Part shown: positions 1 to 26,356 of the stretch, piece after piece
Layout of the letters: each line of letters begins with the position of its first letter
Numbering within the stretch: position 1 is the stretch's first letter
From: Hyphomicrobiales bacterium
Lineage (GTDB): Bacteria > Pseudomonadota > Alphaproteobacteria > Rhizobiales > JAJFHR01
Direction: 5' to 3'
Length of the DNA: 64,000 nucleotides
NCBI GenBank assembly: GCA_021775475.1
Contig: JAJFHS010000053.1
Coordinates: 108,271-172,270, forward strand
Translations under genes and position numbers: made by a program
The notes under the pieces: generated by a model
What the model saw: only the letters and a program-made list of their open reading frames with translations
Database searches by the model: none
What the model was told of the DNA's origin: nothing

Positions 1-778
1 GCAAGTCCATCTGGCTGACAAAAATAAACCAGCCAAGACCACCAGACGCCCCTTCGCTGGTATCCGAGATCGACCCGCCGAACACCAACTCAGCTGCAAT
101 CAGAGTGCGCCAAGCATAGGACCAGCCGATTTTGAGGCCCATAAGAATTTGCGGGAAAGCAGCGGGAATAAGAAGTTTCACAACATAGACAATGCCGCGC
201 AGACCATAGTTACGCCCGACCATGCGCTGGGTTTCGCTGACGCTCATAAAGCCTACATGGGCATTAAGGGCAACGGGCCAGATAACCGAATGCAACAGCG
301 TGAAGATAATGGCATCAGCACCAAGTCCGAACCACAAAAGAGCCAGCGGTAAAAGGGCAATGGCGGGCAGTGGATTGAGCATTGCGGTTAATGTAGACAG
401 AATATCACTGCCAAAACGGGTCGTCGCCGCTGCCGTGGTCAACAACGTGGCAATGACGATACCGATGGCATAGCCGGATATCAGCACCGTAATTGAATTC
501 CATACCATATATAAAAGTTGCTCACTGAACACGGCATCGGCCAGTGCCAGCGCGGTCGCTGAGAATTTCGGCAGGATCAATTCGGAAACACCGCTCAATC
601 GCGAATAAACCTCCCATACGATGACCACGATCACCAGAATGGAGAGCTTGCGCACGGAGTGCATGTCCGATATACGCTCAATCAACGTCAGCTTGCGCGC
701 AACATCCGCCGTACTGGCCTTGCCAATATCGCTGGCCTCGAATTCCGGGCGGACAAGAACATCGGGAATTTTATCCAT
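1..778 (-). CDS. ABC transporter permease, NitT/TauT (SsuC/TauC-like) type, partial
   Basis: Inner-membrane permease of the importer encoded by the next two genes. The reading frame starts with ATG at 778 and remains open to the left edge, giving at least 259 residues, so the C-terminus is outside the window; for this reason it is missing from the ORF track. Its ATG overlaps the ATPase stop by one base (TGATG), a sign of translational coupling. The translation shows a hydrophilic N-terminus of about 45 residues, a first membrane helix (SILVIVVIVW), the helices typical of the BPD_transp_1 fold, and a cytoplasmic coupling stretch with the NYGLRG motif near residue 190. Substrate is not readable from the permease; relatives carry sulfonates, nitrate, pyrimidine precursors or aromatic acids. 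Confidence 0.9.
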   Translation of the reverse strand, partial: MDKIPDVLVRPEFEASDIGKASTADVARKLTLIERISDMHSVRKLSILVIVVIVWEVYSRLSGVSELILPKFSATALALADAVFSEQLLYMVWNSITVLISGYAIGIVIATLLTTAAATTRFGSDILSTLTAMLNPLPAIALLPLALLWFGLGADAIIFTLLHSVIWPVALNAHVGFMSVSETQRMVGRNYGLRGIVYVVKLLIPAAFPQILMGLKIGWSYAWRTLIAAELVFGGSISDTSEGASGGLGWFIFVSQMDL

Positions 779-1626
779 CAGCCCTTGTCCCCGGTTTGAA
801 TTTCATCCTCCAGAATTCTGTCGGCAAACAACATGTCATGGATGCGCTGCTGCACCTCGACAAACTCTTTGGTGCCGACATTTTCGTGGTTGAGATCAAA
901 GGCGTTGAGTTCAGCCTTGACCTGACCGGGATGGGGCGAAAGCACTAAAATCCTGCTACCGACAATCAGCGCTTCCTCGATGGAGTGGGTGACAAACAAC
1001 ACTGTAAAATGAGTGTCCTCCCACAATTGCAACAACTCCTTTTGCATTTGCAGCCGTGTCAGCGCATCCAGAGCTGCAAAGGGTTCATCCATCAGCAGCA
1101 CATCAGGCTCCATCGCCATACCACGTGCAATCGCGACGCGCTGTTTCATGCCGCCTGACAGCATATGCGGATATGTGTCTTCAAAGCCGCTCAGCTTAAC
1201 CTTCTGGATATATTCCATGGCGATGTCATCGGCTTCAGCCGCATTGTCACTCTTGCCGCCATTACGTAGCGCGAAAGTAATGTTCTGTTTAACGGTTTTC
1301 CACGGCAACAACTGGTCAAATTCCTGAAACACCATGACCCGGTCGGGCCCGGGATCAGAAATTTCACGACCCTTGAGGCGAATGGCACCCTCCACCGGCT
1401 TCATGTAACCGGCGATACCTTTTAGCAACGTCGATTTACCGCACCCCGATGGACCAAGCAGAACAAACCTGTCGGCTGGATACACATCAAACCCGACGCG
1501 ATATGTCGCCGTAATCAGATGTTCCTTGGTCTTGTACTGGAGTGTTACCCCGTCAACCTCAAGGATTGGTTTGGTGTCAGCTACGGCGGGCGTTGAGCCC
1601 GCCGCAGTCGAATTTTTCGTATCCAT
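778..1626 (-). CDS. ABC transporter ATP-binding protein, NitT/TauT (SsuB/TauB-like) type
   Basis: ATPase driving the importer. Walker A GPSGCGKST lies near residue 58, the ABC signature LSGGMKQR near 156, Walker B VLLMDEP near 177, and the switch histidine in FVTHSIEEA near 212. At 282 residues it is slightly longer than the usual 250-260 because of an N-terminal extension rich in Ala and Thr. It sits 3 bp after the binding-protein gene and overlaps the permease start by one base, so the three form one transcription unit. The family is certain from the motifs; the substrate is not. Confidence 0.95.
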   Translation of the reverse strand: MDTKNSTAAGSTPAVADTKPILEVDGVTLQYKTKEHLITATYRVGFDVYPADRFVLLGPSGCGKSTLLKGIAGYMKPVEGAIRLKGREISDPGPDRVMVFQEFDQLLPWKTVKQNITFALRNGGKSDNAAEADDIAMEYIQKVKLSGFEDTYPHMLSGGMKQRVAIARGMAMEPDVLLMDEPFAALDALTRLQMQKELLQLWEDTHFTVLFVTHSIEEALIVGSRILVLSPHPGQVKAELNAFDLNHENVGTKEFVEVQQRIHDMLFADRILEDEIQTGDKG

Positions 1627-1629
1627 CGA

Positions 1630-2676
1630 TCAACTACCGTCTTGGTCGTAGTTGTTTTCCCAGTAGTAGTCTTTCCAGCTCGTTGGCATATTCTTGATGG
1701 AACCGATGGAGTTCATGAACTTGGCAAATTCCATTGTCCGCTCCGGTGTTACCGAATACAGCATCTCATTGGGATCGCTAATCATCTTTTCCACATCTGC
1801 GAGCTTCAACTTGGATTTGGTGAATCGAACATAAAGTGCAGCTGCATCTTTCTTGTTACCATTGATCCAGTCAATCGCTGTGCGGTATGAACTGGCAACA
1901 CAGTCATAAAGCTTGGGATTGGCTTTTTTCCACTTCTCCTTGTTGTACATGGCAACCGTCGAATGGCGTCCACCGAGCACATCATAAGAAGTAAGAACGG
2001 TCTTTACCTTACCGGTTTGCAGCTCAGCATAAGAAGTCGGCAGGGTGGCAAAATGACTTTTCACAGCCTGACCACCAGCAAGAAGAGCTGCCATTGCCGA
2101 AGGATGCTTCATCGAAACAGTCATCGGATCAAGCTTGAAAGCTTCTTTGGCGCCCCACTTCTTCTTTGCTGCCATTTGCAGCACCACCGCCTGAATTGAC
2201 ACTTTTACTGATGGCGTAGCAATCTTGTGATCGTTCAGCCCAACATAGTCCCCAAGTTTCGTCACCCGCGGATCGTTGGTGTTCAATTTTAACGGCATGG
2301 CCGAAAGCGTCATCATGGCTTTAACGTTAAGACGTCCCTTGGTTTTGTCCCACAGCTTCAAAAGCGGGCCAATACCTCCGGCGGCAAAATCCACATTGTC
2401 AGACAACAAAGCCTGATTGACAGCAGCGCCACCACTGAAGCGATGCATGGTAACCTTGATGTCACCAAGACCGGCTTTGGCCGCACAGGCCTGCACCAGT
2501 TTTTTATCAACGACCACATGCATGGGGAGATATAACAGCCCGAATTGCTGAGCAAATCTCACCTGGTTTGTTTCCTGTGCAATGGCCACTGCCGACATCG
2601 AAGCTCCGGCGATTGCCAGGATTGCCGCACCGGTGGCAATCTTACAAACCGAGTATTTCTTTAATGTTTTAGTCAC
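1630..2676 (-). CDS. ABC transporter substrate-binding protein, NMT1/SsuA/TauA-like
   Basis: Periplasmic binding protein of the importer, 348 residues. A signal peptide is evident (hydrophobic stretch ATGAAILAIAGASMSAVAIAQ, signal peptidase I site near 33). The mature part has the NMT1-type layout, with RFAQQFGLLYLPMHVVVD at the start in the position where relatives bind the ligand, and two alpha/beta lobes. The gene follows the ComA-like gene after 112 bp and precedes the ATPase by 3 bp. The ribosome-binding site GGGAGG is placed correctly before the ATG. The neighbouring ComA-like protein would fit a sulfonate, but binding proteins of this family also take up aromatic acids and pyrimidines, so the ligand is open. 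Confidence 0.9.
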   Translation of the reverse strand: MTKTLKKYSVCKIATGAAILAIAGASMSAVAIAQETNQVRFAQQFGLLYLPMHVVVDKKLVQACAAKAGLGDIKVTMHRFSGGAAVNQALLSDNVDFAAGGIGPLLKLWDKTKGRLNVKAMMTLSAMPLKLNTNDPRVTKLGDYVGLNDHKIATPSVKVSIQAVVLQMAAKKKWGAKEAFKLDPMTVSMKHPSAMAALLAGGQAVKSHFATLPTSYAELQTGKVKTVLTSYDVLGGRHSTVAMYNKEKWKKANPKLYDCVASSYRTAIDWINGNKKDAAALYVRFTKSKLKLADVEKMISDPNEMLYSVTPERTMEFAKFMNSIGSIKNMPTSWKDYYWENNYDQDGS

Positions 2677-2788
2677 TTAGGTTTCCTCCCTTTTCTACGA
2701 CTTCGCGATGAATGGCCCGATATTATTTTTATGGACCGGCTTTTAATTCCTTTCACTTGTCAAATCCCGTGCGGGAAATGATTTCCCC

Positions 2789-3607
2789 TCACGCAGCTTT
2801 CCCAACCTCCGGCCCCACAACGCTGAGGCCAACGCGTAACGCTTCGGTTTCAAAAATATCATGAGGCATAACATTGGCCAGATTGACATCCGGGCCAAAT
2901 TCGGAGATTAGAAATTTCTTGAGATCATAGACGTCACAATTATGAGTGCCGGGAACCCACGGCCCGATCAACTCGAAAATCACCTTACTAACATCAAGGC
3001 CGTCGCGAAGTTCGGACAGCAACGCCCGGTTGGGCTCACCATCGTTAAGAAGCTCCGCCCCCTCCACCAGCACGACGTCGGCCCCGGCATCAAAACATTC
3101 ATTGGCCTGGGCAATGAGAGTTGCAGCACCGGTGTCTTCGCTTTTTGAGCCGACTTCACCATGCACCTCAAGACCGCAGTCAACGGCGGTGCGTATCAGG
3201 GCCTGACGCGACTGCGTGTCCAGAGGCACGCAATTGTCGGACACTTCAATCGCTTCAAAGCCCAGCCGTCTGGCTTCCTCAAAATACGGCTCCGCGCTGG
3301 CCAGACCTTGCGTTGCAAAAACATACTCGAGAAATTGCCCACCAATGAACGGATGAATATTATGACTTTTATAAAGTGCTATTTTTTGCAGCAGATAGTC
3401 TTCTTCATAAAGCCGAGCAGTACCGGCAACAAACTTGGCGAGATCCACAAATGGTGCCACAAGGTCAAGCCAGTCCCGCTGCACGCCTAACGGCAAACCC
3501 CAGTCCATCATCATCGTCAACCCGGCTCGGCGCGGCTTGTCCATGGAGCGCTCAGATGAACTCGGGACAAGGGAGAAAGGTTGCGATTGTGGCACCGAAT
3601 TCGTCAT
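2789..3607 (-). CDS. Phosphosulfolactate synthase (ComA) family TIM-barrel protein, divergent
   Basis: 272 residues. ComA adds sulfite to phosphoenolpyruvate to give (2R)-phospho-3-sulfolactate. Family landmarks are present: KPRRAGLTM near residue 24, IGGQFLE where ComA has GGTLFE, GFEAIEVSD near 115, VHGEVGSK near 148, and the C-terminal FGPDVNLANVMP resembling FGPNVNLGNI. Several usually fixed positions differ, for example MDWGL instead of the usual D-K-G-L, and IFELIGPWVPG instead of IFEAP. The fold assignment is therefore good, but sulfite addition to PEP is doubtful. The start ATG overlaps the preceding GntR stop (ATGA) with GGAGAGG in front. It lies between a regulator and an NMT1-type importer, so a catabolic role on the imported compound is more likely than coenzyme M-like biosynthesis. 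Confidence 0.75.
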   Translation of the reverse strand: MTNSVPQSQPFSLVPSSSERSMDKPRRAGLTMMMDWGLPLGVQRDWLDLVAPFVDLAKFVAGTARLYEEDYLLQKIALYKSHNIHPFIGGQFLEYVFATQGLASAEPYFEEARRLGFEAIEVSDNCVPLDTQSRQALIRTAVDCGLEVHGEVGSKSEDTGAATLIAQANECFDAGADVVLVEGAELLNDGEPNRALLSELRDGLDVSKVIFELIGPWVPGTHNCDVYDLKKFLISEFGPDVNLANVMPHDIFETEALRVGLSVVGPEVGKAA

Positions 3608-4431
3608 TCCAACCTCTCCGATAGCTCTAAAGGCAGATGCCCCGGTGGCAGAAAAATCTGTTGGTAAGAAGCTGGTGCATCCCGGTAGGAACGCCCCAAA
3701 ACCTGCCAGAAGGTGCCAAAACTGCCATTGCCAAGTTCAAGCCTGCTACACACATCAGGGGTAAATTGCTGACATTGAACCAGATGCTCAAAACGTAAGG
3801 TCGGCATATTGAAAGTCCTGTTGAGGAATTCACGTAATGTGAGACCACTCAACTCCTCACATGAGCGCTGCAACAACGAGCCATAACGTTCAAACGGCAG
3901 ATAGAACCGCGTCAGGCCGGTGAAACGGTCATCCACATTTAAAATCCGTTCAATCCGAATATATGAATCCCCGGAATTCATATATTCCTTCCATGGTGGA
4001 TCGAGGCCTTCGGACTTAGCATCCACCTTGGTTATTGAAAAAACATGCAAATAGATCGGCAGTAGCGATTGACCATCGTCCGACCTGAAACGGAAATGCA
4101 AAAGATCTCGCCGGGCGACTTTTTCCTTGTTAGCGCGGCCAACCTGCATGGCGACACCCGAAACAAAAGTCCCCCTCCCCGCATGCCGCAAAACAACACC
4201 TTGTTCAACAAGGGCATTCATGGCCTTTTGAATAGTACCGAGACTGACGGGAAGCGTTTCCATCAAATCTCGTTCACCCGGCATCTTTGAGCCCGGGATG
4301 TATTCCCCGGATTCTATCGCATCCAGCATGGCATTGGATAACCGAAGGTATTTCGGCACCCTCTCCATACCAAAGGCTGAAGATTGCGAGAAACGCTCTG
4401 CAATTGAAGATGTGTTGAGAGTTTCGCTCAC
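3604..4431 (-). CDS. GntR-family transcriptional regulator, UTRA-like C-terminus
   Basis: 275 residues. The N-terminal winged helix spans about residues 24-95 (RDLMETLPVSLGTIQKAMNAL, then the wing LRHAGRGTFVSG). The C-terminal effector domain is of the HutC/UTRA kind and ends with DAPASYQQIFLPPGHLPLELSERLE. The same ending and the same VSLGTxQKA recognition helix occur in the regulator at 23963-24736, so these are paralogues. Its stop overlaps the ComA-like start by 4 bp, making it first gene of a five-gene unit with the importer; it most likely represses this unit in response to the imported compound or a product of it. An inverted repeat in the upstream gap is a plausible operator. Confidence 0.9.
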   Translation of the reverse strand: MSETLNTSSIAERFSQSSAFGMERVPKYLRLSNAMLDAIESGEYIPGSKMPGERDLMETLPVSLGTIQKAMNALVEQGVVLRHAGRGTFVSGVAMQVGRANKEKVARRDLLHFRFRSDDGQSLLPIYLHVFSITKVDAKSEGLDPPWKEYMNSGDSYIRIERILNVDDRFTGLTRFYLPFERYGSLLQRSCEELSGLTLREFLNRTFNMPTLRFEHLVQCQQFTPDVCSRLELGNGSFGTFWQVLGRSYRDAPASYQQIFLPPGHLPLELSERLE

Positions 4432-4466
4432 GCCCGCATGTCTCCCAGTCCCGTTACACCAACTAA

Positions 4467-4521
4467 TTAGAGCCGTAAACAGAACGCTTATTATTAAAAC
4501 TATATAGCTTTATAGCTCTAA
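4467..4521. promoter_or_regulatory. Promoter/operator region upstream of the GntR-ComA-ABC unit
   Basis: AT-rich gap between the AcnX small subunit and the GntR gene. It contains a perfect 7-bp inverted repeat, TTAGAGC at 4467-4473 and GCTCTAA at 4515-4521, and a direct repeat TATAGCT-T-TATAGCT at 4503-4517. The placement directly upstream of a GntR start suggests autoregulation. It is not proven; the paralogous regulator at 23963 has a clearer pair of palindromes in the same place. Confidence 0.4.
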
Positions 4522-4544
4522 AGATTCGAAAAGTCAATGTAGCA

Positions 4545-4973
4545 TCATTTTTCCCCGACAATGGTCAAGGTTCCCGCTGCCGGATCAACCTCCACGATGT
4601 CGCCGTTTTCAACGAACCCGGTGACATCAAACTCGAAACGGTCAAGCAGCGGCAGGTCAGCGTAAGCCGCTCCCTGCGCCATGATCGGATTGGCAAAATT
4701 GAGGATCAACGCCTTCGGCCCCATATTGCGCGACACCATTTCCTTGAGCATCCAGGCCGACGCCACACCGCCCTTGGCAGCATTGAGAATGAGGATCTTG
4801 TCCACATAGCTATGGCCGAAAAGCTTGTGTTGCGGCCGTGAGAACACGCCCTTGAGCCGGTCGAGGTCATAGCGGGCGCTGAAATTATCCGACGCCACCA
4901 GTGCTTCGCCCCGCACTATCTTACCAATCCCCGCATGGCCTTTGAGAATTCCGCTATTTGTAACTCCAGTCAT
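4545..4973 (-). CDS. AcnX (aconitase X) small, swivelling subunit (DUF126)
   Basis: 142 residues with start at 4973, not at the track start 5009: ATG at 4973 overlaps the large-subunit stop (ATGA) and is preceded by GGGGAGG. The protein carries the DUF126 hallmarks: GIGKIVRGEALVA near residue 18, ARYDLDR, SRPQHKLFG with the conserved serine, NAAKGGVASAW and FANPIMAQGAAYADLPLLDRF. In bacterial AcnX enzymes this swivelling domain closes over the active site in the large subunit. Characterised members are dehydratases: cis-3-hydroxy-L-proline dehydratase in bacteria and phosphomevalonate dehydratase in archaea. Here the operon partners are CoA-thioester enzymes rather than proline enzymes, so the substrate may be new. 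Confidence 0.93.
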   Translation of the reverse strand: MTGVTNSGILKGHAGIGKIVRGEALVASDNFSARYDLDRLKGVFSRPQHKLFGHSYVDKILILNAAKGGVASAWMLKEMVSRNMGPKALILNFANPIMAQGAAYADLPLLDRFEFDVTGFVENGDIVEVDPAAGTLTIVGEK

Positions 4974-6229
4974 CGCACCAGCCTCCCCTTGATTGCGGAC
5001 TCGACACAATTCTCCAGTGACGCCAGCACCGGTTCATAACCATAGCCGCCAATGATGTTGACCAATTTGGCCGAATTGGTCAGCAACCGCTTCCAGCCTT
5101 TGGCTTCACCAATTTCACGTGCGCACATCTGATAAAAGCACACGCCCTGAAGCAACAGCGCACCTGATGCCTCGAATTTCGCCGTCACACCCATGCGATC
5201 AGCGGCAGATTTAACTTCCGGCGACACCGTGGCGATCACGGCAACTTTTTCATGGGTTTGCCGACCATCGAGCAAATCAGCCACGGCAGAAATTTCAATC
5301 AACGACAATTGCGGGGCCGCAAACACCACCACGTCGACAACGTCATCGGCGGGCCAGTAAGCCTCAATGAAAGCATCAATATCGTCTTTGCTAATCGCCG
5401 CCATGGTTTGTGGATTATCGACCAGCGCCACGCGCCCGTCGGCAGATTCCGGTGTAACGCCGGGCATATGAAACAGCGGCGTTGAACCGTAGCTCGCCAG
5501 AGCTGCACCAAAATGCTTGAGTTCGTCCGAGTTCGGTCTTTGATCGAGAGAGGCCAATTCAATCACCGGCACATCCCAGTAAGAATTCATCTGCCGCCCG
5601 ATGATGCCGCCAAGCGCACCCCACTGGGCAAAATCATCAGGACGATCGTTGACCTTGAATATCTTGCTCCCGCGGCGGCACTCATCGAGATGAAAACCAT
5701 ATCGCGGTGCCCGCCCGGTCAGCGCCGAGGCAAGTGCCGAAGGCCCGCCCTGAAAATTGGTGCGCGCGCCCTGCACCGAATTGGCGTAGATTGTCGAGCC
5801 AGTATCGCCGAAGGCCAGATGTTCGCCCAGCACTGGCGGCATAATCGTTTGATAATTGATGCAGGTATCAGTCATCATCACGCCAAGTGCGCGAAAAGCA
5901 TCAATGGCGCGCTGTTCGAGTTCGGCTTGGGCGTCACTTTGGCCAAGGGCTTTATAGTGCTCAAAATCAATTCCACGCGGGTCCGTCACTGTCGGCACCT
6001 TGACCTGACGTTGTTCTTCGGAATACCCGGCCAGCTTTTCGAGAAACAAAACCCCGTCTTCGCCAAGCGATTCCGTGTCCGCCATCAGATGCACCTGGGC
6101 GATCTCGACGCAGTCTTCAGCATCGAAAAAATTCCCAACCTTGACGATCTGCTCCATAGCAAACTGACGCGGCCAGCCGAATTTTCCTTCCAGCATCTCC
6201 TGTTCATATGAACTCAACCGAATTGACAT
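4970..6229 (-). CDS. AcnX (aconitase X) large, catalytic subunit (DUF521)
   Basis: 419 residues, matching the split (type II) AcnX large subunit. Diagnostic motifs are DTCINYQ near residue 121, FGDTGSTIYANSVQGARTN near 140-160, GGPSALASALTGRAPRYGFHL near 161-180, and a GGIIGR segment near 210. Cysteines available for an iron-sulfur cluster occur at DTC, in LQGVCFYQMC and in LENCVES. The ATG at 6229 has GAGAGGG at proper spacing. It sits 20 bp after the biotin carboxylase stop and overlaps the small subunit by 4 bp. The enzyme should dehydrate a small hydroxy acid or hydroxyproline-like compound; the operon context argues for an organic acid linked to carboxylation chemistry. Confidence 0.93.
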   Translation of the reverse strand: MSIRLSSYEQEMLEGKFGWPRQFAMEQIVKVGNFFDAEDCVEIAQVHLMADTESLGEDGVLFLEKLAGYSEEQRQVKVPTVTDPRGIDFEHYKALGQSDAQAELEQRAIDAFRALGVMMTDTCINYQTIMPPVLGEHLAFGDTGSTIYANSVQGARTNFQGGPSALASALTGRAPRYGFHLDECRRGSKIFKVNDRPDDFAQWGALGGIIGRQMNSYWDVPVIELASLDQRPNSDELKHFGAALASYGSTPLFHMPGVTPESADGRVALVDNPQTMAAISKDDIDAFIEAYWPADDVVDVVVFAAPQLSLIEISAVADLLDGRQTHEKVAVIATVSPEVKSAADRMGVTAKFEASGALLLQGVCFYQMCAREIGEAKGWKRLLTNSAKLVNIIGGYGYEPVLASLENCVESAIKGRLVR

Positions 6230-6249
6230 TCTAATCCCTCTCGTAGTGG

Positions 6250-7626
6250 TTACGATACACCGGACGCTTCAAGCCGATAGCTTCCCTCATCCACATAGCG
6301 CGTAGTCGCCAGATCCTCACAAAAAACCCGGTCGCGCAGAACCTGACCAAGAAACTCCAGATTTGTCGAAACACCTTCGATCTCAATTTCGTCCAACGCC
6401 TGCACCATATGCGCAATGGCGTCCTTGCGGTTCTGTCCCCGCGTAATGACTTTGGCAATCATCGGATCATAATATGGCGTGATACGATCGCCCTGCCGCA
6501 ACCCGGTATCGATGCGCAACCCGGCGCTTTCCTCAGGGAAGTCAAAGCGCTTCAGCTCTCCCGGTGATGGCAGGAATTTCTTCTCCGGGCGTTCGGCATA
6601 AATGCGGCATTCAATCGCATGACCATCCGTTGAAATGTCACCTTGTTCCGGCAACACGAGATTTCCCGCCGCCAGTTCGATCTGGGCGGCAACAAGATCA
6701 GCCCCGGTAATCATTTCAGTGACCGCATGTTCAACCTGTATGCGCGTGTTCATCTCCAGAAAATAGAACACTTCCGCTTGCCGGTCATAAATGAACTCCA
6801 CTGTTCCCGCACCGCGATAATTGACATGAGCGACCAGCGCCAGCGCTGCCGCACACAAGCTCGCGCGTGTTTCCGCAGCAAGTCCTGGGGCCGGGGCTTC
6901 CTCGACAACCTTTTGAAACCGGCGTTGCACCGAACAGTCGCGGTCAAAATAATGCACACCACGACCATCGCCAAAGCCGAAAACCTGAACTTCGATATGG
7001 CGGGCGTGGGCTATAAAGCGTTCCAGATAGACCGTACCATCGCCAAAACTGCGTTCGGCCAGGCTTTGCGTGGTCTCAACCTGGGCCTGAAGGTTTTCAG
7101 GATCATCAACCAGACGCATGCCGATGCCGCCACCACCGGCTGCAGCCTTAACCAGCAGCGGATAGCCAACTTCTTCGCCTGTAGCCGCCAATCCAGCCGT
7201 ATCGCCGGGTGAAAACCGCCTACTCCCCGGCACCACCGGAATACCAGCAGCACGGGCGATTTCCCGCGCTCGTTCTTTATCTCCCATCGCCTCTATGGTT
7301 TGGGGTTGCGGGCCGATCCAGATACGTCCCATGTTTTCCACCGCTGCGGCAAAACCCGCATTTTCTGCCAAAAACCCGTATCCGGGATGCACCGCATCGG
7401 CGCCGGAAACCCGCAACGCCATCAGCAAGGCATCCTGATTGAGATAGCTTTTCGCCACCGGTGCCGGACCAATCTCAAGACTGTGACTGGCTTCACTCAC
7501 ATGCAGGGCATCGGCGTCAGCTTCCGAAAACACTGCCACCGTTTTTATGTCCAGCGCCCGGCAGCTGCGTATGATCCGGCAGGCGATTTCGCCGCGATTG
7601 GCGATGAAAACCTTGGCAATACTCAT
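6250..7626 (-). CDS. Biotin carboxylase subunit of an acyl-CoA carboxylase (AccC/PccA-like)
   Basis: 458 residues from the ATG at 7626 (MSIAKVFIANRGEIA), which has GGGGTGGG before it; the longer track start at 7671 would reach into the preceding gene. The protein shows the N-terminal Rossmann domain, the ATP-grasp domain with the glycine-rich loop KAAAGGGGIGM near residue 160, EKFIAHARHIEVQ-like segment (ERFIAHARHIEVQVFG), EMNTRIQVEHAVTEM near 290 and the C-terminal biotin carboxylase domain. It ends without a biotinyl domain, which is supplied by the separate 73-residue carrier three genes upstream. It carboxylates biotin using ATP and bicarbonate for the two carboxyltransferases of the operon. 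Confidence 0.95.
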   Translation of the reverse strand: MSIAKVFIANRGEIACRIIRSCRALDIKTVAVFSEADADALHVSEASHSLEIGPAPVAKSYLNQDALLMALRVSGADAVHPGYGFLAENAGFAAAVENMGRIWIGPQPQTIEAMGDKERAREIARAAGIPVVPGSRRFSPGDTAGLAATGEEVGYPLLVKAAAGGGGIGMRLVDDPENLQAQVETTQSLAERSFGDGTVYLERFIAHARHIEVQVFGFGDGRGVHYFDRDCSVQRRFQKVVEEAPAPGLAAETRASLCAAALALVAHVNYRGAGTVEFIYDRQAEVFYFLEMNTRIQVEHAVTEMITGADLVAAQIELAAGNLVLPEQGDISTDGHAIECRIYAERPEKKFLPSPGELKRFDFPEESAGLRIDTGLRQGDRITPYYDPMIAKVITRGQNRKDAIAHMVQALDEIEIEGVSTNLEFLGQVLRDRVFCEDLATTRYVDEGSYRLEASGVS

Positions 7627-7636
7627 ACCCACCCCC

Positions 7637-9232
7637 TCATGGCGCAACGCCTGCTCTTGCCCGGGGGCCAAGATTGATCTTCAGGCGTTGTTCAGCCAGC
7701 GCAATGTATTCGCACAGAATAGGTCTGGTCTCGCGCGGATCGATAATCTCCTCCACCCCCAGAGCTTCGGCGGTGCGGAAGGGCGAGGCATGAGCGCGCA
7801 GTTCAGCCTCCAGCTCTTTTTCCCGCGCCTTGGGATCATCAGCGGCCGCAATCTCGCGACGAAAGGCTGCCGCCACGCCACCTTCAACCGGCAATGACCC
7901 CCATTCGCCGGTCGGCCAGGCTAGTTTCAGATCGATATCATTCTTGTTACAGGTCGCCATTCCAGCCATGCCGTAGCATTTGCGAATAACAAGCGTCAGC
8001 GTTGGCACTTTCAATTGCCCTGCCGTATAGACAACGCGCATGCCCTCGCGCAACGTACCTTCCTGCTCGGCCTTGAGACCGACCATGAAACCCGGCACAT
8101 CGACCAGAAATACCAGCGGGATGTGGAAGGTGTCGCACAACTCCATAAAGTGAATCTGCTTGCGCGCGGCATCAGCATCCATGGCACCGCCATAGATCAT
8201 CGGATTATTGCCAATAATCCCCACAGGCCGCCCGCCCAGCCGCGCCAGCATGGTGATGACGGCGCGGCCAAAGGTTGGTCTGATTTCAAATTCCGAATCG
8301 CGGTCAATCACCAGAGAAATCAGTTTTTTCATATTATACGGTTGCGTCCGCTTTTCCGGCACCAGCCCCAAAAGCGCCTCCTCACAGCGTTCAACCGGAT
8401 CCTCAACCGGCAACACCGGCGGCAGCTCCCACACATTTTGCGGCATGAAGCTCAGGAAACGCCTGATCTGTAATAAAGCCTCTTCCTCGCTCGCAGCCGA
8501 GTTGTGTATAGAGCCTGCCTTTTTGACCGCAACCTCCGGCCCGCCCAGATCTTCCTTAGTGATTGCCTGACCTAAAGAGCGTTTGACCACCGGTGGTCCG
8601 GCTGCGAAAATCTGACTTGTGCCCTCAACCATAACGGAAAAATGCGACAGGATAGCGCGGCCCGCCGGTCCGCCCGCTGCCGTCCCCAACACAGCAGAGA
8701 TTACCGGAACCTCGCCCAGCAACTCGACCGAGCGTTCAAAACCGTCAACGCCGGGAAAGACGACAAACCCGCGCCGTTTGGCTGATGTGACCGAGCCACC
8801 AGCGCCATCAATGAGATTTATCAGCGGCATCTTGTAGTGGTGCGCCAGATCTTCGATATAGCCGCCCTGCCCGCCCTTGCGGCGCATGGCACCAAAACTG
8901 ATGCCACCGCGCACGGTAAAATCTTCACCGCCAATGGCCACCGGGCGACCATCAATGCGCGCTGTCCCTGCTACATAGGTGGCAGGCGTTACTTTTTTTA
9001 ACTTGAGGTTGTCGTCATATTCGCCGGTTCCAGCCAGTGTTCCGATTTCACGAAAGCTGTCCGCATCACTTAAACCCGCGATACGCTCACGTACCGTCAG
9101 CCGACCGGCGTCATGCTGGCGTTTGACATTTTCCGCCCCCCCCATCTCGGCGGCAAAGGCGCGGCGTTGCGATAATTCAGAAATCTGCTCAGCCCAGAAG
9201 TCTTTGCCTGGTTCTAGCTTTCGATCAGGCAT
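7637..9232 (-). CDS. Acyl-CoA carboxylase carboxyltransferase subunit (second copy)
   Basis: 531 residues with two crotonase-like carboxyltransferase domains. The N-domain contains VKRQHDAGRLTVRERI and the oxyanion segment GGDFTVRGG-like (GGEDFTVRGGISFGA); the C-domain has GRPVGIIGNNP and LVFLVDVPGFMVG. This resembles PccB/MccB subunits that carry carboxyl from biotin to an acyl-CoA. The start overlaps the biotin carrier gene by 19 bp with GAAGAGGACC as ribosome-binding site. It is only distantly similar to the other carboxyltransferase of the same operon (9452-10990), so they are not a recent duplication. Which acyl-CoA is used cannot be read by eye. Confidence 0.92.
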   Translation of the reverse strand: MPDRKLEPGKDFWAEQISELSQRRAFAAEMGGAENVKRQHDAGRLTVRERIAGLSDADSFREIGTLAGTGEYDDNLKLKKVTPATYVAGTARIDGRPVAIGGEDFTVRGGISFGAMRRKGGQGGYIEDLAHHYKMPLINLIDGAGGSVTSAKRRGFVVFPGVDGFERSVELLGEVPVISAVLGTAAGGPAGRAILSHFSVMVEGTSQIFAAGPPVVKRSLGQAITKEDLGGPEVAVKKAGSIHNSAASEEEALLQIRRFLSFMPQNVWELPPVLPVEDPVERCEEALLGLVPEKRTQPYNMKKLISLVIDRDSEFEIRPTFGRAVITMLARLGGRPVGIIGNNPMIYGGAMDADAARKQIHFMELCDTFHIPLVFLVDVPGFMVGLKAEQEGTLREGMRVVYTAGQLKVPTLTLVIRKCYGMAGMATCNKNDIDLKLAWPTGEWGSLPVEGGVAAAFRREIAAADDPKAREKELEAELRAHASPFRTAEALGVEEIIDPRETRPILCEYIALAEQRLKINLGPRARAGVAP

Positions 9233-9435
9233 AGGATTTGGTCCTCTTCCACCGAGTCATCAGGCGCAACTTTGATTTCACTGAGGGTACCGGTGACGGG
9301 AGCCTCAACGGGTATCTCCATTTTCATCGATTCCAGGATCATGATAAGATCGCCTTCCTCGACCGCATCTCCTTTGGCTTTTTCAACCTTCCATACGGTG
9401 CCGATAACCTCTGAAGTGACATTGGTTGTTGCCAT
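9214..9435 (-). CDS. Biotin carrier protein, stand-alone biotinyl domain
   Basis: 73 residues from the ATG at 9435 (MATTNVTSE), preceded by GGGAG; the track start at 9525 lies inside the preceding gene and adds unrelated residues. The protein is a single biotinyl/lipoyl beta-barrel with the biotin attachment motif ESMKMEIP, the lysine being near residue 39, and the usual second half PVEAPVTGTL followed by VKxxDDSVEEDQ-type turn. It carries carboxybiotin between the biotin carboxylase and the carboxyltransferases. Such short free carriers are common in multi-subunit biotin enzymes. The gene lies between the two carboxyltransferase genes. Confidence 0.95.
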   Translation of the reverse strand: MATTNVTSEVIGTVWKVEKAKGDAVEEGDLIMILESMKMEIPVEAPVTGTLSEIKVAPDDSVEEDQILCLIES

Positions 9436-9451
9436 GAATTTATCTCCCTGT

Positions 9452-10990
9452 TCAAAATGTTGTCGGCCACGCGGCCATACGGTGCGCACCGACATCGCCG
9501 GACAGGCGCATCTGGTGAATTTCAAGTTGCTGGATCAAATATCGTCGCGTCTGTGAGGGATCTATGACTGCCTGCGCTGCATAAATTTCGGCCAGTCCAT
9601 AGGCGGAGCTGTCCTTTTCCATGCCTGCACGTATCTCTTGCTTATGCTCATCAGACGCCTGCTGGCCCCATGTGACAATTTCAGTGGCGAACCCAGCATC
9701 CATAAAACTGACCTCGGCAGTTGGCCACAAGGCAACATCATCCGAGTTGCGCCCGCCACCCATATTCAAGTATGCCTGGCCGTAGCTCTTGCGCATAATG
9801 ATTGAAAGTTTCGGCACTGTGCACATCTGCAATGCCTGCATGAAGTTCATGATTTTTCCCGGCGCTTTTTGCTTCTCGCCTTCGATGCCGATAACAAAGC
9901 CCGGCGTATCCACAAGCAGAACAAGCGGTATGTTGAAGCTGTCGCACATGACGGTAAAGCGCGTCGCCTTTTCGCACCCAGCCACATCCAGCGCCCCGGC
10001 CTTGCCCATGGGGTTGGAGGCAATAAAGCCGACGGTGCGCCCGTCCATGCGCGCAAGACCGGTCACCGCCGTGCGCCCGAATTTGGGCTTGAATTCAAAA
10101 AAACTGTCGAGATCAGCCAGACAGGCAATGATCTTGCGCACGTCATATGCGCGCTTGCGGCTTTCCGGCAGTATGTCCAAAATCCGGCTACTGCCCTCAT
10201 CGCTACCGGCAGGCACGGGCGCACGCGGCGGTGGCTCGTTGCAGTGCGACGGCATATAGCTCAAAAACCGCTTGATCTCGGCAATCGCTTCTTCATCACT
10301 CTCAACCACCCGGTCAATCAGGCCGGAAATCTCACTGTGCAGTTTCCAGCCGCCCAAATCTTCGGCTTCGACTTCCTGGCCAATGGCGAAAGAAGCCAGT
10401 CCGGGACTGGCCACCGCCATGATTGCGCCTTTGCGCATAACAACAAAATCAGACAGACAGGTGTACCACGCCGATGAGCCATAACATTGCCCGAGCACGG
10501 CTGAGGCCCACGGTGTCTGGCGGGTGCGCACATATTGCTGTGGGTCCTGGCCCAGATTGCTGCCCATGCCTTTAGCGCCCATATTGTCAGGCATGCGGGC
10601 ACCGGAAGATTCACCGAAGAACACCATCGGAAAACCGCGCTCCGTTGCCACCCGTTTAACATGGCCGATCTTTTTCATATTTGTGGCACTGGACGATGCG
10701 CCCTTGACGGTAAAATCATTGGAGGCAATGCCCACCATGCGCCCGCCGACCTTGGCAAAGCCGGCAACCTTGCCATCAGCCGGAGTTCTGTCGCGATCTT
10801 CCCGCATCATGGAAGAAACCGCCAGCAGCCCGGTCTCAACCCAACTATCGGGATCAATCAGAGCTTCGATCCTGCTGCGCGCATTAAGCAAGCCCTGAGC
10901 TTCGCGCCGGGCCAGCCGATCCGGCCCGCCCATGGCCCGGGCGTGGGCTTCGCGCGCTTTCAAGTCCTCGACCATATCATCGAAACTCAT
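9452..10990 (-). CDS. Acyl-CoA carboxylase carboxyltransferase subunit (first copy)
   Basis: 512 residues of the PccB/MccB family: LNARSRIEALIDPDSWVE near the N-terminus, NDFTVKGASSS at the first oxyanion site, FFGESSGARMP, and in the C-domain GRTVGFIASNPMG and LVLLVDTPGFVIG. The start overlaps the CoA transferase stop by 4 bp (ATGA). Together with 7637-9232 it gives the operon two complete carboxyltransferases for a single biotin carboxylase and carrier. Either two substrates are served by one biotinylation module, or both proteins join in one hetero-oligomer. Known acyl-CoA carboxylases of this type normally use one such subunit. Confidence 0.92.
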   Translation of the reverse strand: MSFDDMVEDLKAREAHARAMGGPDRLARREAQGLLNARSRIEALIDPDSWVETGLLAVSSMMREDRDRTPADGKVAGFAKVGGRMVGIASNDFTVKGASSSATNMKKIGHVKRVATERGFPMVFFGESSGARMPDNMGAKGMGSNLGQDPQQYVRTRQTPWASAVLGQCYGSSAWYTCLSDFVVMRKGAIMAVASPGLASFAIGQEVEAEDLGGWKLHSEISGLIDRVVESDEEAIAEIKRFLSYMPSHCNEPPPRAPVPAGSDEGSSRILDILPESRKRAYDVRKIIACLADLDSFFEFKPKFGRTAVTGLARMDGRTVGFIASNPMGKAGALDVAGCEKATRFTVMCDSFNIPLVLLVDTPGFVIGIEGEKQKAPGKIMNFMQALQMCTVPKLSIIMRKSYGQAYLNMGGGRNSDDVALWPTAEVSFMDAGFATEIVTWGQQASDEHKQEIRAGMEKDSSAYGLAEIYAAQAVIDPSQTRRYLIQQLEIHQMRLSGDVGAHRMAAWPTTF

Positions 10991-12240
10991 GATTTTTCTC
11001 CCCTTGCCGCAAGCTCAGGGGCCACAACGACACCGTCACGCACCAACGCCTCAATTTCAGCATCATCAAGGCTGAGTTCACTTTTCAAAACATCCGTTGT
11101 ATCTGCACCAATATCGCGCCCGGCCCAACGCACCGCACCCGGTGTTTTTGACAATTTAGGTACGATGCCGGCGACTGTTACCGGCCCCAGTACGCGGTCT
11201 TCCACTTCCACCAACATATCGCGTTCACGATAGTGGGGATCGTTGAAAATATCCTCAACCGTATAGATCGGCGCAGCTGGAACCCTTGCCTCCTCAAGCG
11301 CTGCTTCAAGCGTCTCCAGATCGAGCGAGCGCGTCCACTGCGCGATAATTGCATCACAGGCACCTTCATTTTCGGCCCGTTTCAGGGCAGTGACGAAACG
11401 CGGATCATGCGCCAGCTCAGCCTGCCCCATGGCAGCCGCCAGGCGGGCAAAAACCGGATCTGATGCAGCCGCCAGAACGATCTGACGATGATCGCGGCTC
11501 TCATAAAGCGAATTGGGCGTATTGCCGGGCAGTCGCGAGCCCGCCCGCCGGGCAATTTCTCCCAGTTGCTGGAACGCAGGAATATGCGGCTCCATAAAAC
11601 TGAAAGAACCTTCATACAGCGCTGAATCCACCACTTGTCCTTGCCCGGTGTGAGTGCGATCCAGCAGCGCCATCACCGCGCCAAAAGCACCATACAGACC
11701 AGCGATGTAATCAGCCAGCGACGTGGCAACGCGCGGTGGTGGCCGGTCCGGGTCTCCGGTAATTTCGCGCAGCCCACTGACCGCCTCACAGACAACACCA
11801 TAGCCGCCGCGGTCGCTGTAAGACCCATCCTGGCCAAACCCGCTGATGCGCACCATAACAAGACCCGGATTGACCTTGCTCAAGGTGTCATACCCAAGCC
11901 CCCAGCGCTCCATGGTACCGGGGCGAAAATTTTCAATGACAATATCCGCCGTTTCACACAAGCGGCGCACCAGGGCGCGGCCCTCGTCAGTGCGCAGATT
12001 AATAGAGACAGCACGCTTTCCCCGCAATATCGATGTGCCATAAAGTGAACGCCCTTTGCATTGGCGACCCATGGAGCGCACCGCATCGCCTTCGCCCTGC
12101 TCAACCTTGATGACATCGGCACCAAAGTCCGCCAGCAGGCGGGCGCAGAACGGCCCGGCAACAGTTGACCCCAGTTCGATCGCCCGCATGCCTGCCAGCG
12201 GGCCCGATGCCTGTTGCTCAACGTGTTTGGACCCCATCAT
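10987..12240 (-). CDS. Class III CoA transferase (CaiB/BaiF family)
   Basis: 417 residues. N-terminal motif GPLAGMRAIELGSTVAGPFCARLLADFGADVIKVE is the family signature, and the nucleophilic aspartate is in TSLADYIAG near residue 185. These enzymes move CoA from one acyl-CoA to a free acid, so the enzyme probably activates the substrate of the operon. It has GGGGG just before ATGATG at 12240, lies 5 bp after the FCD regulator and overlaps the carboxyltransferase by 4 bp. It is distinct from the two CoA transferases of the 53-56 kb island. Confidence 0.95.
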   Translation of the reverse strand: MMGSKHVEQQASGPLAGMRAIELGSTVAGPFCARLLADFGADVIKVEQGEGDAVRSMGRQCKGRSLYGTSILRGKRAVSINLRTDEGRALVRRLCETADIVIENFRPGTMERWGLGYDTLSKVNPGLVMVRISGFGQDGSYSDRGGYGVVCEAVSGLREITGDPDRPPPRVATSLADYIAGLYGAFGAVMALLDRTHTGQGQVVDSALYEGSFSFMEPHIPAFQQLGEIARRAGSRLPGNTPNSLYESRDHRQIVLAAASDPVFARLAAAMGQAELAHDPRFVTALKRAENEGACDAIIAQWTRSLDLETLEAALEEARVPAAPIYTVEDIFNDPHYRERDMLVEVEDRVLGPVTVAGIVPKLSKTPGAVRWAGRDIGADTTDVLKSELSLDDAEIEALVRDGVVVAPELAARGEKS

Positions 12241-12245
12241 TCCCC

Positions 12246-12935
12246 CTATAGCAGATATTTCTGATAATCATTGAACCAGTCACGGGCGCTGCGGATATTG
12301 TCCCGCTTCAACCGCTCCGCCTCCTCGGCATTTCCCGCGCGCATGGCGGCGAGAATTTCCCGGTGCTGACGCATCCCCTCCTGCATCCGCCCGGGCACCA
12401 GTATCAAACGCCGGATCAGCACTTGCGTGCGGTCATAAAGACTGTCGAGCAGGTTACGCAAAACTTCATTGTCAGCAGCGACAACACATTGGCGGCGAAA
12501 CTGGTAATTGGCTTGTGCATAGGCATCAAAATCATTGCGCGCCAGCGTGTCCTCCATGGAAGGGCCAAACAGGTCGATCAGATTATCCCAGGTTTCCGGT
12601 GGTGATTTTTCCACCGCCAGACGCACCATTTGTGCTTCCAGAGCTTCGCGGACCTCGAACAGCTCCTTGATCTTGTCGACCTCCAGCCGGGTGACAATCG
12701 CACCCCGGTTGGGAATGCGCTCGATCAGGCCGCGTTCTTCCAGAATGCCGAATGCCTCGCGAATTCGAGCGCGTGACACGCCGAACTCATCGGCAAGATC
12801 CTGCTCGCGCAACCGCGACCCGGGGGGCAACTCATGATTGACGATACGCTGGCGCAATTCACCCACCAGCCTTTCCGCTCCCAGGTCAGCACTGGCCAGT
12901 TCGATCACTTTTCCACCTGATTTCGACGCCACCAA
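12246..12935 (-). CDS. GntR-family transcriptional regulator, FadR subfamily (FCD domain)
   Basis: 229 residues: winged helix at about 20-85 (REQDLADEFGVSRARIREAFGILEERGLI) and an all-helical FCD effector domain after it (EVREALEAQMVRLAVEK near 97, then the histidine-bearing HREILAAMRAGNAEEAERL near 195). FCD regulators usually bind carboxylic acids, often through a metal. The track start is TTG at 12935; GTG at 12932 is the equally placed alternative behind AGGGGG. It is the first gene of the minus-strand operon, 5 bp before the CoA transferase, and should control it. A typical FadR-type operator is present 50 bp upstream. Confidence 0.93.
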   Translation of the reverse strand: MVASKSGGKVIELASADLGAERLVGELRQRIVNHELPPGSRLREQDLADEFGVSRARIREAFGILEERGLIERIPNRGAIVTRLEVDKIKELFEVREALEAQMVRLAVEKSPPETWDNLIDLFGPSMEDTLARNDFDAYAQANYQFRRQCVVAADNEVLRNLLDSLYDRTQVLIRRLILVPGRMQEGMRQHREILAAMRAGNAEEAERLKRDNIRSARDWFNDYQKYLL

Positions 12936-12979
12936 ACCCGTTCCCCCTGTTGATTTAAATACAAGGTGAATTATGTTAT

Positions 12980-13011
12980 CAATATTGTCAACAATTTTAA
13001 CGACAATATTG
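12980..13011. promoter_or_regulatory. Probable operator of the FCD regulator operon
   Basis: Perfect 10-bp inverted repeat CAATATTGTC (12980-12989) and GACAATATTG (13002-13011). The left arm overlaps TTGTCAACAA at 12985-12994, which fits the known GntR-FadR consensus of half-sites GT and AC around a short spacer. Position is about 50 bp before the FCD regulator gene, in an AT-rich gap with no other gene. Binding itself is inferred. Confidence 0.6.
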
Positions 13012-13102
13012 CAAGCGTCAGATTACTAACTTTCCGACACCACTGGGCTATCGTTCACATCCATATGAAATTAAATTGAAAGTAGTCAACACCAAAAATG
13101 GA

Positions 13103-13858
13103 TCAAAGAATTTGGCCTAGAAATTCCTTTGTGCGCGGGTCTTTGGCATCATCAAAAAATGTTGCCGGTGGGCCATGCTCGACAATCACACCACGGTCGG
13201 TGAAATAAATGTGATCGGCAATTTCTCGGGCAAAGCCCATTTCATGGGTTACCAGAATGCAGGTCATGCCGTCAGCTGCAAGTTCTTTGATGGTGACCAG
13301 AACTTCCTTTACGGTTTCAGGGTCAAGTGCTGCTGTAACCTCGTCGAACAGCATGACGTCCGGTCGCATGGCGAGTGAGCGGGCAATCGCGACACGTTGT
13401 TGCTGGCCACCTGAAAGTTCACCGGGATAGCTGTCTTCCTTGCCTTCGAGCCGAACTTTTTTAATCAGTTTCCGGGCTCGTGTTTCAACTTCTTGCTGAT
13501 TTTCCTTTAGCACCACAACCGGTGCCATCATAATATTTTCAAGCGCGGTTTTGTGCGGGAACAGATTATACTGCTGAAAGACCATGCCGACTTTCTGGCG
13601 CAATTCGAGCTTGTCCAGATTGGCATCATGAACCTGTTGACCTTCGACGGTAATAGACCCCGCCTGAATATCAATCAGTGCATTGATGCAGCGAATTAAG
13701 GTGGATTTACCAGAACCTGACGGTCCGATAATACAGATCACCTCCCCCTTCATAACGTCCAGTGAAATGCCTTTGAGAACCTCAAGGTCGCCAAATGACT
13801 TATGCACGTCTTTAATCGAGATCAAAGGTTGATCAGCGGTCCATGCCGGTAAATTCAT
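13103..13858 (-). CDS. Polar amino acid ABC transporter ATP-binding protein (GlnQ/HisP-like)
   Basis: 251 residues, standard length for this subfamily. Walker [10 protein letters not shown] near residue 44, Q-loop GMVFQQYNLFPHKTALENI near 90, signature [16 protein letters not shown] near 145 and Walker B VMLFDEVTAALDPE near 168. The Walker B segment has DEV where most relatives have DEP; this variant is seen in some GlnQ-like proteins and should not abolish ATPase activity. It is the last gene of the RpiR-controlled amino acid importer unit, 12 bp after the second permease. Confidence 0.95.
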   Translation of the reverse strand: MNLPAWTADQPLISIKDVHKSFGDLEVLKGISLDVMKGEVICIIGPSGSGKSTLIRCINALIDIQAGSITVEGQQVHDANLDKLELRQKVGMVFQQYNLFPHKTALENIMMAPVVVLKENQQEVETRARKLIKKVRLEGKEDSYPGELSGGQQQRVAIARSLAMRPDVMLFDEVTAALDPETVKEVLVTIKELAADGMTCILVTHEMGFAREIADHIYFTDRGVIVEHGPPATFFDDAKDPRTKEFLGQIL

Positions 13859-13870
13859 GGCATTTTCTTT

Positions 13871-14788
13871 CTATGTTTCAACAGCAAAGCGACGCTCCAA
13901 CACTCGGGTCATTGAAGCTATGGGGTAACTGTAGGCAAAGAACCACGCCATCAGCCATAAATACATCGGGATCAGAAATTCACTGCGCCCTTCTGCCGCC
14001 AGAGCGTTTTGCGTCAAGGTCATGCCATCATTGACACCAAGGATCGAGATCAGCGGCGTCGACATGGTCAAAATGCAATACCAGTTCATCCACGGCGGGA
14101 TCATTCGTTTGACGCATTGTGGCAGAATTATTCTCCACATTGTCTGGGTACGGGAAAAAGCCAGGCTTTCTGCCGACTCCCATTGACCCGTGGGAATGGA
14201 ACTAATGGCACCGCGTACAATTTCCGATACATTTGCCATAATCGGCAGTGACAGCGCAAAAGTTGCCTTTGTCCAGCCGGGTATGTCGATCTGCTGGCCG
14301 GCAATCTTGACAGAAAACGGCAGCAACAACATAAAATAAAACAACAGAACCAGCCAAGGTGAATTACGAAAAATCTGGGTTATGGACCAGGAAATACGCC
14401 GGATATACGAATTGGGCGATACTTGTCCGATACCAAGCCAGAGGCCGAGGAAAGTACCAAGTGCCATGGATATAAAACTAACAGCAATATTGAGGATAAA
14501 CCCGCCAAACTCTCCTTCCGGTCCCATGAACATCAACGGTGTCCATTTTACCAGAGTTTGAAAGATGGTCTGATTGGCATCGCCTTGAATTTGCGCAAAT
14601 GCGGTATCAATCATGAGCCAGGCAGAAAGTATTGCCAACAACGCCAAACCGATTTTTCGGTTGCCCGCCAAACTGACCATATTTTCAATCTGCCAACCGG
14701 GCCCATTTGTCAAAACGAACGGCTTTATTACCGGCAGATCGGAGGCCCCCTGGTGAAGGGAAAACTTGTTATTGCTATTTTCCCTCAT
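13871..14788 (-). CDS. Polar amino acid ABC transporter permease (second)
   Basis: 305 residues when started at the ATG at 14788 (MRENSNNK), which overlaps the stop of the preceding permease by 4 bp; the track start at 14824 would overlap by 40 bp. A soluble N-terminal part of about 45 residues precedes the first membrane helix (IGLALLAILSAWLMI), longer than in most HisM-type permeases. The permease core includes FGGFILNIAVSFISMALGTFLGLWLGI and the coupling loop QWESAESLAFSRTQTMWRIILPQ near residue 230. It forms the channel with the first permease. Confidence 0.92.
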   Translation of the reverse strand: MRENSNNKFSLHQGASDLPVIKPFVLTNGPGWQIENMVSLAGNRKIGLALLAILSAWLMIDTAFAQIQGDANQTIFQTLVKWTPLMFMGPEGEFGGFILNIAVSFISMALGTFLGLWLGIGQVSPNSYIRRISWSITQIFRNSPWLVLLFYFMLLLPFSVKIAGQQIDIPGWTKATFALSLPIMANVSEIVRGAISSIPTGQWESAESLAFSRTQTMWRIILPQCVKRMIPPWMNWYCILTMSTPLISILGVNDGMTLTQNALAAEGRSEFLIPMYLWLMAWFFAYSYPIASMTRVLERRFAVET

Positions 14789-15522
14789 TGGCCAAATCCC
14801 GGTACTTTTAATGATTTTTCCCACTTATGCATCAACCACACAAGAAAACCGACAAGCGAGATATAGATGACCCAGACCACGTTCATCATTTCAAGAACAT
14901 TGTATTCATCTGACCAGATCTGGTTGGCAACATATATGGTTTCCGGCACCGCAATGGCATAAGCCACCGTTGTGGTTTTCAAAAGATTGATCAGATTATT
15001 ATTGAGAGCGGGCAGACATACCCGGAATGCCAAAGGCAGAGTTACGTATCGGTAGACCTGAAGACGATTATAGCCAAGAGCTTCTGCCGCTTCGACGGTT
15101 GATTGCGGCACGGCTTCGACACCGGCGCGAAAAATCTCCACATTGAAAGCACCGGCAAAAAATGACAGGGAAACAACCGCCCAGCCGTAGCCGTCAAGCA
15201 CGCCCCCTTTAATTCCAAGCACAGACGACAAAGTGGCATCGACGGCGAAATAGAAAAAATACAATTGGATGAGAGGGGGCGTGTTGCGGAAAAACTGGAT
15301 GTACCCCTGCACAATATTGCGAAGCCAGATCATTTTTGACATTTGCAGCCAGGCCCCGGCAACACCAATCATCAGGCTTATAACGATAGCGACAATCGAC
15401 AAATGTATGGTCGTCCATATGCCTTTGAGAAATCTGGCACGATCCAGATCATCATAGAAAATCGTCAGGTTGATGCCCTGGGTGTCATACAACCATCTAA
15501 AGAACTCCCAGATTACATCCAA
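14785..15522 (-). CDS. Polar amino acid ABC transporter permease (first)
   Basis: 245 residues, a HisM/GlnP-type permease. Visible features are the helix WTTIHLSIVAIVISLMIGVAGAWL, the family phrase FFRNTPPLIQLYFFYFA and the EAA coupling loop EAAEALGYNRLQVYRYVTLP near residue 155. It lies 82 bp after the binding-protein gene; the gap holds a strong hairpin, which should lower permease expression relative to the binding protein. Confidence 0.93.
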   Translation of the reverse strand: MDVIWEFFRWLYDTQGINLTIFYDDLDRARFLKGIWTTIHLSIVAIVISLMIGVAGAWLQMSKMIWLRNIVQGYIQFFRNTPPLIQLYFFYFAVDATLSSVLGIKGGVLDGYGWAVVSLSFFAGAFNVEIFRAGVEAVPQSTVEAAEALGYNRLQVYRYVTLPLAFRVCLPALNNNLINLLKTTTVAYAIAVPETIYVANQIWSDEYNVLEMMNVVWVIYISLVGFLVWLMHKWEKSLKVPGFGQ

Positions 15523-15558
15523 CCCCGTTACTCCCCGGCAGCTAATTCAAAACAAAAC

Positions 15559-15590
15559 AGGTCCGCCACGTTTGCAATCGTGGCGGACCT
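15559..15590 (-). terminator. Intercistronic hairpin between binding-protein and permease genes
   Basis: Perfect 12-bp inverted repeat AGGTCCGCCACG / CGTGGCGGACCT with an 8-base loop, followed on the minus strand by GTTTTGTTTTG. It can act as a partial terminator or as an mRNA-stabilising structure for the upstream binding-protein message, an arrangement common in ABC operons that need excess binding protein. Confidence 0.75.
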
Positions 15591-15604
15591 CACATTATGT
15601 GTTC

Positions 15605-22876: not shown

Positions 22877-22922
22877 AATTTTTTCCTAAAACCTGAAGTA
22901 CTATTCACACATGCTTCATAAC

Positions 22923-23810: not shown

Positions 23811-23911
23811 ATTTTAATCCTGTTTACCAGATGACCCGGGATATCAAAACTTTCGGTCAAGAAGTGCCAACCCCTGCGAATAAAGTTTCGTTGACGATCG
23901 GGATGATTTAG

Positions 23912-23946: not shown

Positions 23947-23962
23947 AAGAGAAGTCGCAACT

Positions 23963-24736: not shown

Positions 24737-24818
24737 AAAAGGCTCAATAGCATTTGAAAAAGCAACAGGTTTACAACACGAAAACTAAATCAAAAACAGG
24801 ACAGAGGAGAAAATTAAG

Positions 24819-26353: not shown

Positions 26354-26356
26354 CTC

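Follow-up and report, generated by a model that had tools for sequence, protein, structure and literature searches.

A probable junction of two separately conserved catabolic gene modules, one encoding an uncharacterised AcnX subclass, in a Hyphomicrobiales genome

Introduction

CaiB enzymes transfer coenzyme A (CoA) between acids, and a biotin carboxylase (BC), a biotin carrier and a carboxyltransferase together carboxylate acyl-CoA with ATP being spent. To our knowledge, AcnX enzymes are known for two reactions. The cis-3-hydroxyproline dehydratase of Agrobacterium (AtAcnX) and the mevalonate 5-phosphate dehydratase of Thermococcus (TkAcnX) served here as guides to the residues (PMC8184944), and bacterial AcnX of types IIc to IIf lack the landmark residues and are uncharacterised (PMC8184944). 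We analysed eight minus-strand genes that join both groups of enzymes at 4545-12935 of a 64,000-nucleotide stretch (the window; positions 108,271 to 172,270 of contig JAJFHS010000053.1, assembly GCA_021775475.1) from a Hyphomicrobiales bacterium. An earlier note, made from the sequence alone, had read the genes as one operon in which AcnX dehydrates an organic acid made or used by the carboxylase. We find that the link between AcnX and the carboxylase is a junction at the genus level and not a conserved pathway. Two catabolic modules, A and B, each conserved separately, probably meet head to tail in this interval, with AcnX belonging to module B.

Gene content and conservation of the locus

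All eight open reading frames (ORFs) are intact and neighbours are spaced by at most 20 bp (5, -4, 16, -19, 10, 20 and -4 bp from the regulator to the AcnX small subunit). Both the ORFs and the family assignments bear out the gene order of the earlier note. Module A starts with an FCD-type GntR regulator (12246..12935; assigned from FCD-type NCBIfam neighbours), which is also the first gene of the module at loci L155, L156 and L216. The regulator is followed by a CaiB/BaiF class III CoA-transferase (10987..12240; NCBIfam neighbours, PDB neighbours 4ed9, 4hl6 and SUGCT), a first carboxyltransferase (CT1; 9452..10990; PF01039, 328 bits; nearest PDB entry the propionyl-CoA carboxylase beta subunit 1vrg), a 73-residue biotin carrier (BCCP; 9214..9435; PF00364, 63 bits; ESMKME motif; a 73-residue homologue in L155), a second carboxyltransferase (CT2; 7637..9232; PF01039, 342 bits; nearest PDB entry 7w5u) and BC (6250..7626; PF02786, PF00289 and PF02785). 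The NCBIfam scores of the CaiB and FCD proteins are all below equivalog cut-offs. Module B opens with the large and small (swivel) subunits of AcnX, AcnX-L (4970..6229) and AcnX-S (4545..4973). The true start of AcnX-S is likely the ATG at 4973, in a 4-bp ATGA overlap with the AcnX-L stop, and those of BC and BCCP are likely the ATGs at 7626 and 9435, in open frames reaching 7671 and 9525; the BCCP start gives 73 residues as in relatives.

Another species of the genus (G002, loci L031 and L059) carries the same genes in identical order, with AcnX-L 95% identical, so the arrangement does not stem from chance. The FCD gene of G002 is split into two ORFs (L031:8027-8773), which might reflect a frameshift or an error in the assembly. 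A promoter and terminator scan of 1-13600 gave counts equal to those in shuffled sequence. The gene series of the earlier note does not end at AcnX-S, as same-strand genes run on downstream, inside the window and beyond its left edge. These encode a GntR-UTRA regulator (3604..4431; PF00392, PF07702; kept in L060 and L061), a protein of the ComA (phosphosulfolactate synthase) family (2789..3607; PF02679, 190 bits; TIGR03849, 163 bits against a cut-off of 280; PDB 1qwg), an SsuA-like ABC substrate-binding protein (SBP; 1630..2676; TIGR01728, 46 bits against a cut-off of 163.5) and an ABC ATPase (778..1626; PF00005), all on the minus strand. Past the left window edge (locus L030), the same strand encodes two permeases, a TauD-family dioxygenase, a DUF3604 protein and a sulfatase, and a metallophosphoesterase gene lies on the opposite strand. 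All equivalog-type models matched by the ComA, SBP, TauD, permease and sulfatase proteins are matched at scores below cut-off.

Each module is found complete without the other. A scan of species genomes for the AcnX-L clade returned 482 relatives, and neighbourhoods were taken from the nearest 80 of these. Among the nearest 80 loci, the full carboxylase set stands beside AcnX only in the genus copy L059. At two loci with AcnX-L 84% identical (L060 and L061), the order of module B is kept (AcnX-L, AcnX-S, GntR, ComA, SBP, ATPase, two permeases, TauD, DUF3604 and sulfatase), with no carboxylase in the locus. The FCD-CaiB-CT1-BCCP-CT2 series together with BC is complete without adjoining AcnX in genomes G440 (L155), G300 (L156) and G834 (L216), where CT1 is 70%, 65% and 88% identical, respectively. 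TAXI-TRAP transporter genes accompany module A in L155 and L156, and the G440 and G300 genomes contain no AcnX match at E<=1e-75. At L216, BC is followed by imuA and not by AcnX; G834, which is also the genome of L061, has both modules, unlinked and on separate contigs. Locus L060 belongs to G833; there module B fills the space 5' of imuA, and a close CT1 was not found in this 3.0 Mb assembly, which may be incomplete. The space 5' of imuA (L216:8623-9453; L060:7351-8127), where G834 has module A and G833 has module B, looks like a possible insertion hotspot.

Genome-level co-occurrence agrees with the separation. The AcnX clade is present in 16 of 384 other alphaproteobacterial genomes, CT1 in 14 and the ComA family in 12. 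In tests that ignore relatedness, AcnX and CT1 occur together in a single genome (0.58 expected, p=0.45), which is not above chance; AcnX and ComA occur together in four genomes (0.5 expected, p=0.0008). Among the closest AcnX relatives, CT1 is found also in G002, G834 and G835 and apparently not in G833. CaiB-type genes near other AcnX loci were given no weight: 11 of the loci scanned (both genus copies counted) have one, a modest excess over the 4 or so expected from 11 copies per 3.9 Mb.

Several observations weigh against a junction of independent modules. With BC and AcnX-L only 20 bp apart and the junction retained in two species, the genes could be co-transcribed and the modules truly linked in function. 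Both modules are present in three close relatives (fused in G002, unlinked in G834 and with a cut-off CT1-BCCP-CT2 set in G835), so a functional link may exist; the pattern of CT1 and AcnX fits shared ancestry and a functional link within this lineage alike. Module A of the window lacks the TAXI-TRAP genes of L155 and L156, which would suit a substrate obtained from another source, but L216 is without these genes as well. Locus L138 independently places another CT1 cluster beside AcnX, with a different CT1 accompanied by BC and BCCP. In addition, neighbourhoods differ widely across the AcnX clade, the co-occurrence of AcnX and ComA is often at the level of the genome without adjacency (G478 and G293), and the co-occurrence p-values are optimistic because related genomes are not independent.

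The alternative is a single assimilation route, in which the CoA-transferase and the carboxylase would produce or consume a hydroxy acid that AcnX dehydrates. The one-strand layout with its short gap in two species, the presence of both modules in G834 and G835, the L138 arrangement and the missing TAXI-TRAP transporter all speak for it. We nevertheless consider such a route unlikely, as each module also stands complete by itself, AcnX and CT1 share genomes no more often than chance predicts, and the conserved partners of AcnX are the genes of module B. In L138, the CT1 cluster also includes a transporter, an MR/MLE enolase and an acyl-CoA ligase of its own, resembling the cluster of Sulfitobacter L056. 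With the gene order not kept outside the genus, the proposal that AcnX acts on the substrate or product of the carboxylase is not supported. A new one-transcript catabolic route in this genus appears rather improbable too; here, an organic acid set free by module B would be turned into an enoate by a rebuilt AcnX that uses a different general base, and the CaiB/two-carboxyltransferase module would convert the CoA ester to a central metabolite.

We favour the junction of two separate modules. In module A, CaiB would put CoA onto an organic acid, and the acyl-CoA would then be carboxylated by a biotin-dependent carboxylase with two different carboxyltransferase subunits. All parts of such a carboxylase are present, namely BC, a carrier with the MKM motif and a carboxyltransferase. 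CT1 and CT2 are 33% identical to one another, and two such different carboxyltransferases suggest a mixed complex. The window genome encodes two further carboxyltransferases elsewhere. A comparison of CT1 with phages returned distant matches only, and a literature search found no paper on this CaiB/two-carboxyltransferase set. An amino-acid ABC operon at 13103-16498 was rejected as the transporter of module A; G002 has cytochrome-type genes upstream of FCD instead.

Module B would serve the uptake and breakdown of another compound, possibly an organosulfur compound, with AcnX most likely removing water, or else a different leaving group, from some small carboxylate. The families of the ABC transporter, TauD, sulfatase and ComA proteins hint at such a substrate, and TauE-like permeases near other clade members as well as a sulfite-dehydrogenase-like gene in L138 fit this hint, with the caution that every family concerned also has other uses. 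The AlphaFold model of the DUF3604 protein from one sequence (pLDDT 33) was not used, and a literature search found no paper on DUF3604 function.

The AcnX subunits

Judged from its residues, the window AcnX belongs to a widespread, uncharacterised subclass with an active site unlike those of both studied AcnX enzymes. Membership in the AcnX family is supported by PF04412 (365 bits) for AcnX-L, by PF01989 (72 bits) for AcnX-S and by the aconitase X fold. The AlphaFold model of AcnX-L (pLDDT 88.4, weak at 144-155) has the AcnX structures 7cnr (E 7.9e-33) and 7cnp (E 1.7e-32) as top Foldseek matches. The residues C123, C364 and K388 are retained. The amine-binding Asp203 of AtAcnX is replaced by M49, Asn233 by D83, Glu292-Ser293-Asn294 by D142-T143-G144 and the carboxylate-site Tyr534 by I392, and A305 and Y366 occupy the positions of third cluster cysteines. 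The resulting signature MxDCDTG(A/G)CYKI is shared by 90 clade rows, varying only at the Ile206 position and between A and G at 305. In contrast, 19 rows including the Agrobacterium enzyme show DxNCESN.C.KY, and the Thermococcus enzyme reads A-S-N-C-E-S-S-C-C-V-K-Y. AcnX-S has KGGVASAW in place of the catalytic-Ser loop. With L119 left out, this loop reads KGG in 90 rows (including the more distant L037) and GS in 21/21 others. In a maximum-likelihood tree, 43 rows including the window and L037 form one clade (support 100/99) to which AtAcnX and its relatives do not belong; the precise position of the long Thermococcus branch is uncertain. The clade is probably one of types IIc to IIf. Loss of the Ser base may be visible in those types too; our literature search found no text stating such a loss and no paper on this clade.

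The subclass most likely retains elimination chemistry, as it still has the fold, two of the Fe-S cysteines and the lysine of the active site. The substrate is most likely neither cis-3-hydroxyproline nor mevalonate 5-phosphate, because the general base, the hydroxyl-binding Glu and the carboxylate/substrate residues are exchanged. The exchange of the general-base Ser for Gly in all 89 readable clade rows could also mean that the subclass is non-catalytic and now has a binding or regulatory role. We regard such a loss of activity as quite improbable, since the two cysteines, the lysine, a new invariant GDTG motif and a Ser/Thr three residues after the lost Ser are conserved across alpha-, beta- and gammaproteobacteria, which suggests an active site that is rebuilt rather than dead.

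A cis-3-hydroxyproline dehydratase is a very improbable identity, even though the only NCBIfam model that the protein matches is that of C3LHyp dehydratase (209 bits where the cut-off is 700). Other residues stand in place of D203, E292, S293 and Y534 and also of the Ser in the small subunit, and the clade excludes the Agrobacterium enzyme and its kin. No hydroxyproline genes were seen in the AcnX neighbourhood, and the proline racemase-family genes of the genome lie on another contig (C36). A mevalonate 5-phosphate dehydratase can practically be dismissed: the Thermococcus enzyme is the best PDB sequence match (182 bits), but the phosphate loop is one residue shorter and contains D51, the third Fe-S Cys (at A305), Tyr and Ser are lost, and HMG-CoA reductase (PF00368) has no match in the window genome. 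Residues, tree and genome content agree with the earlier note that AcnX fits neither known reaction. Of the two findings that would together have refuted the proposal of that note, a gene order not conserved elsewhere was observed, and an AcnX inside the hydroxyproline dehydratase clade was not.

Neighbouring clusters

A link to glyoxylate was considered, with glyoxylate carboligase in L063, L066, L072 and L089, and malate synthase together with glycolate oxidase in L053, but set aside; at L063 and L072, opposite-strand genes separate the glyoxylate carboligase operon from AcnX. At these two loci, a TauE-like permease directly upstream of AcnX-L/S could form a minimal unit of transporter and enzyme. 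Fumarase and glycolate neighbours also suggested an ether-lyase reaction of the carboxymethoxysuccinate type, an idea that was not retained. The window contains a second CoA-based cluster at 52363-59294 (MmgE/PrpD, two CaiB-type CoA-transferases, enoyl-CoA hydratase, an HMG-CoA lyase-like protein and acyl-CoA dehydrogenase). The region 21110-27961 encodes a GGT-family hydrolase, an MBL-fold protein, a tripartite tricarboxylate transporter and a GntR-UTRA regulator similar to the one in module B; at other loci, GGT genes are found in the vicinity of AcnX. In Sulfitobacter, a metK-annotated gene (L056:9742-10908) sits amid genes for MR/MLE enolase, CT1 and acyl-CoA ligase, an odd context for a SAM synthetase.

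Comparison with described systems

The AcnX subclass occupies some 480 places in the species-level genome collection with most known active-site residues exchanged, general base included. Its repeated partners (ComA-family, DUF3604, TauD-family and sulfatase proteins, organic-acid and SsuA-like transporters) provide a short list of candidate genes. The CaiB/two-carboxyltransferase module, which elsewhere comes together with TAXI-TRAP transporter genes, forms another uncharacterised unit.

Compared to AtAcnX (PMC8184944, PMC5144071), the window AcnX shares the fold (7cnp) and the equivalents of Cys273, Cys508 and Lys530, but differs at D203, N233, E292, S293 and Y534 as well as by Gly in place of Ser70; it also differs from type I AcnX in being made of two subunits. 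Like the type IIb enzyme TkAcnX, it has separate large and small subunits and the same fold (7cnr), but the phosphate-binding loop, the third cluster Cys, Glu129, Tyr365 and Ser62 are not retained. It resembles types IIc to IIf, to one of which it probably belongs, in being bacterial, two-subunit and devoid of the landmark residues of either known enzyme. The ComA-like protein belongs to the phosphosulfolactate synthase family yet falls below the equivalog cut-off, reads EGAE where the archaeal enzyme has EGRE, and lacks a coenzyme M context. The carboxylase set resembles acyl-CoA carboxylases of the propionyl-, acetyl- and 3-methylcrotonyl-CoA type in its carboxyltransferase family and in having carrier and BC as separate subunits, and is set apart from them by two distinct carboxyltransferases, the added CaiB CoA-transferase and altered motifs (ESSGAR, GAGGSV).

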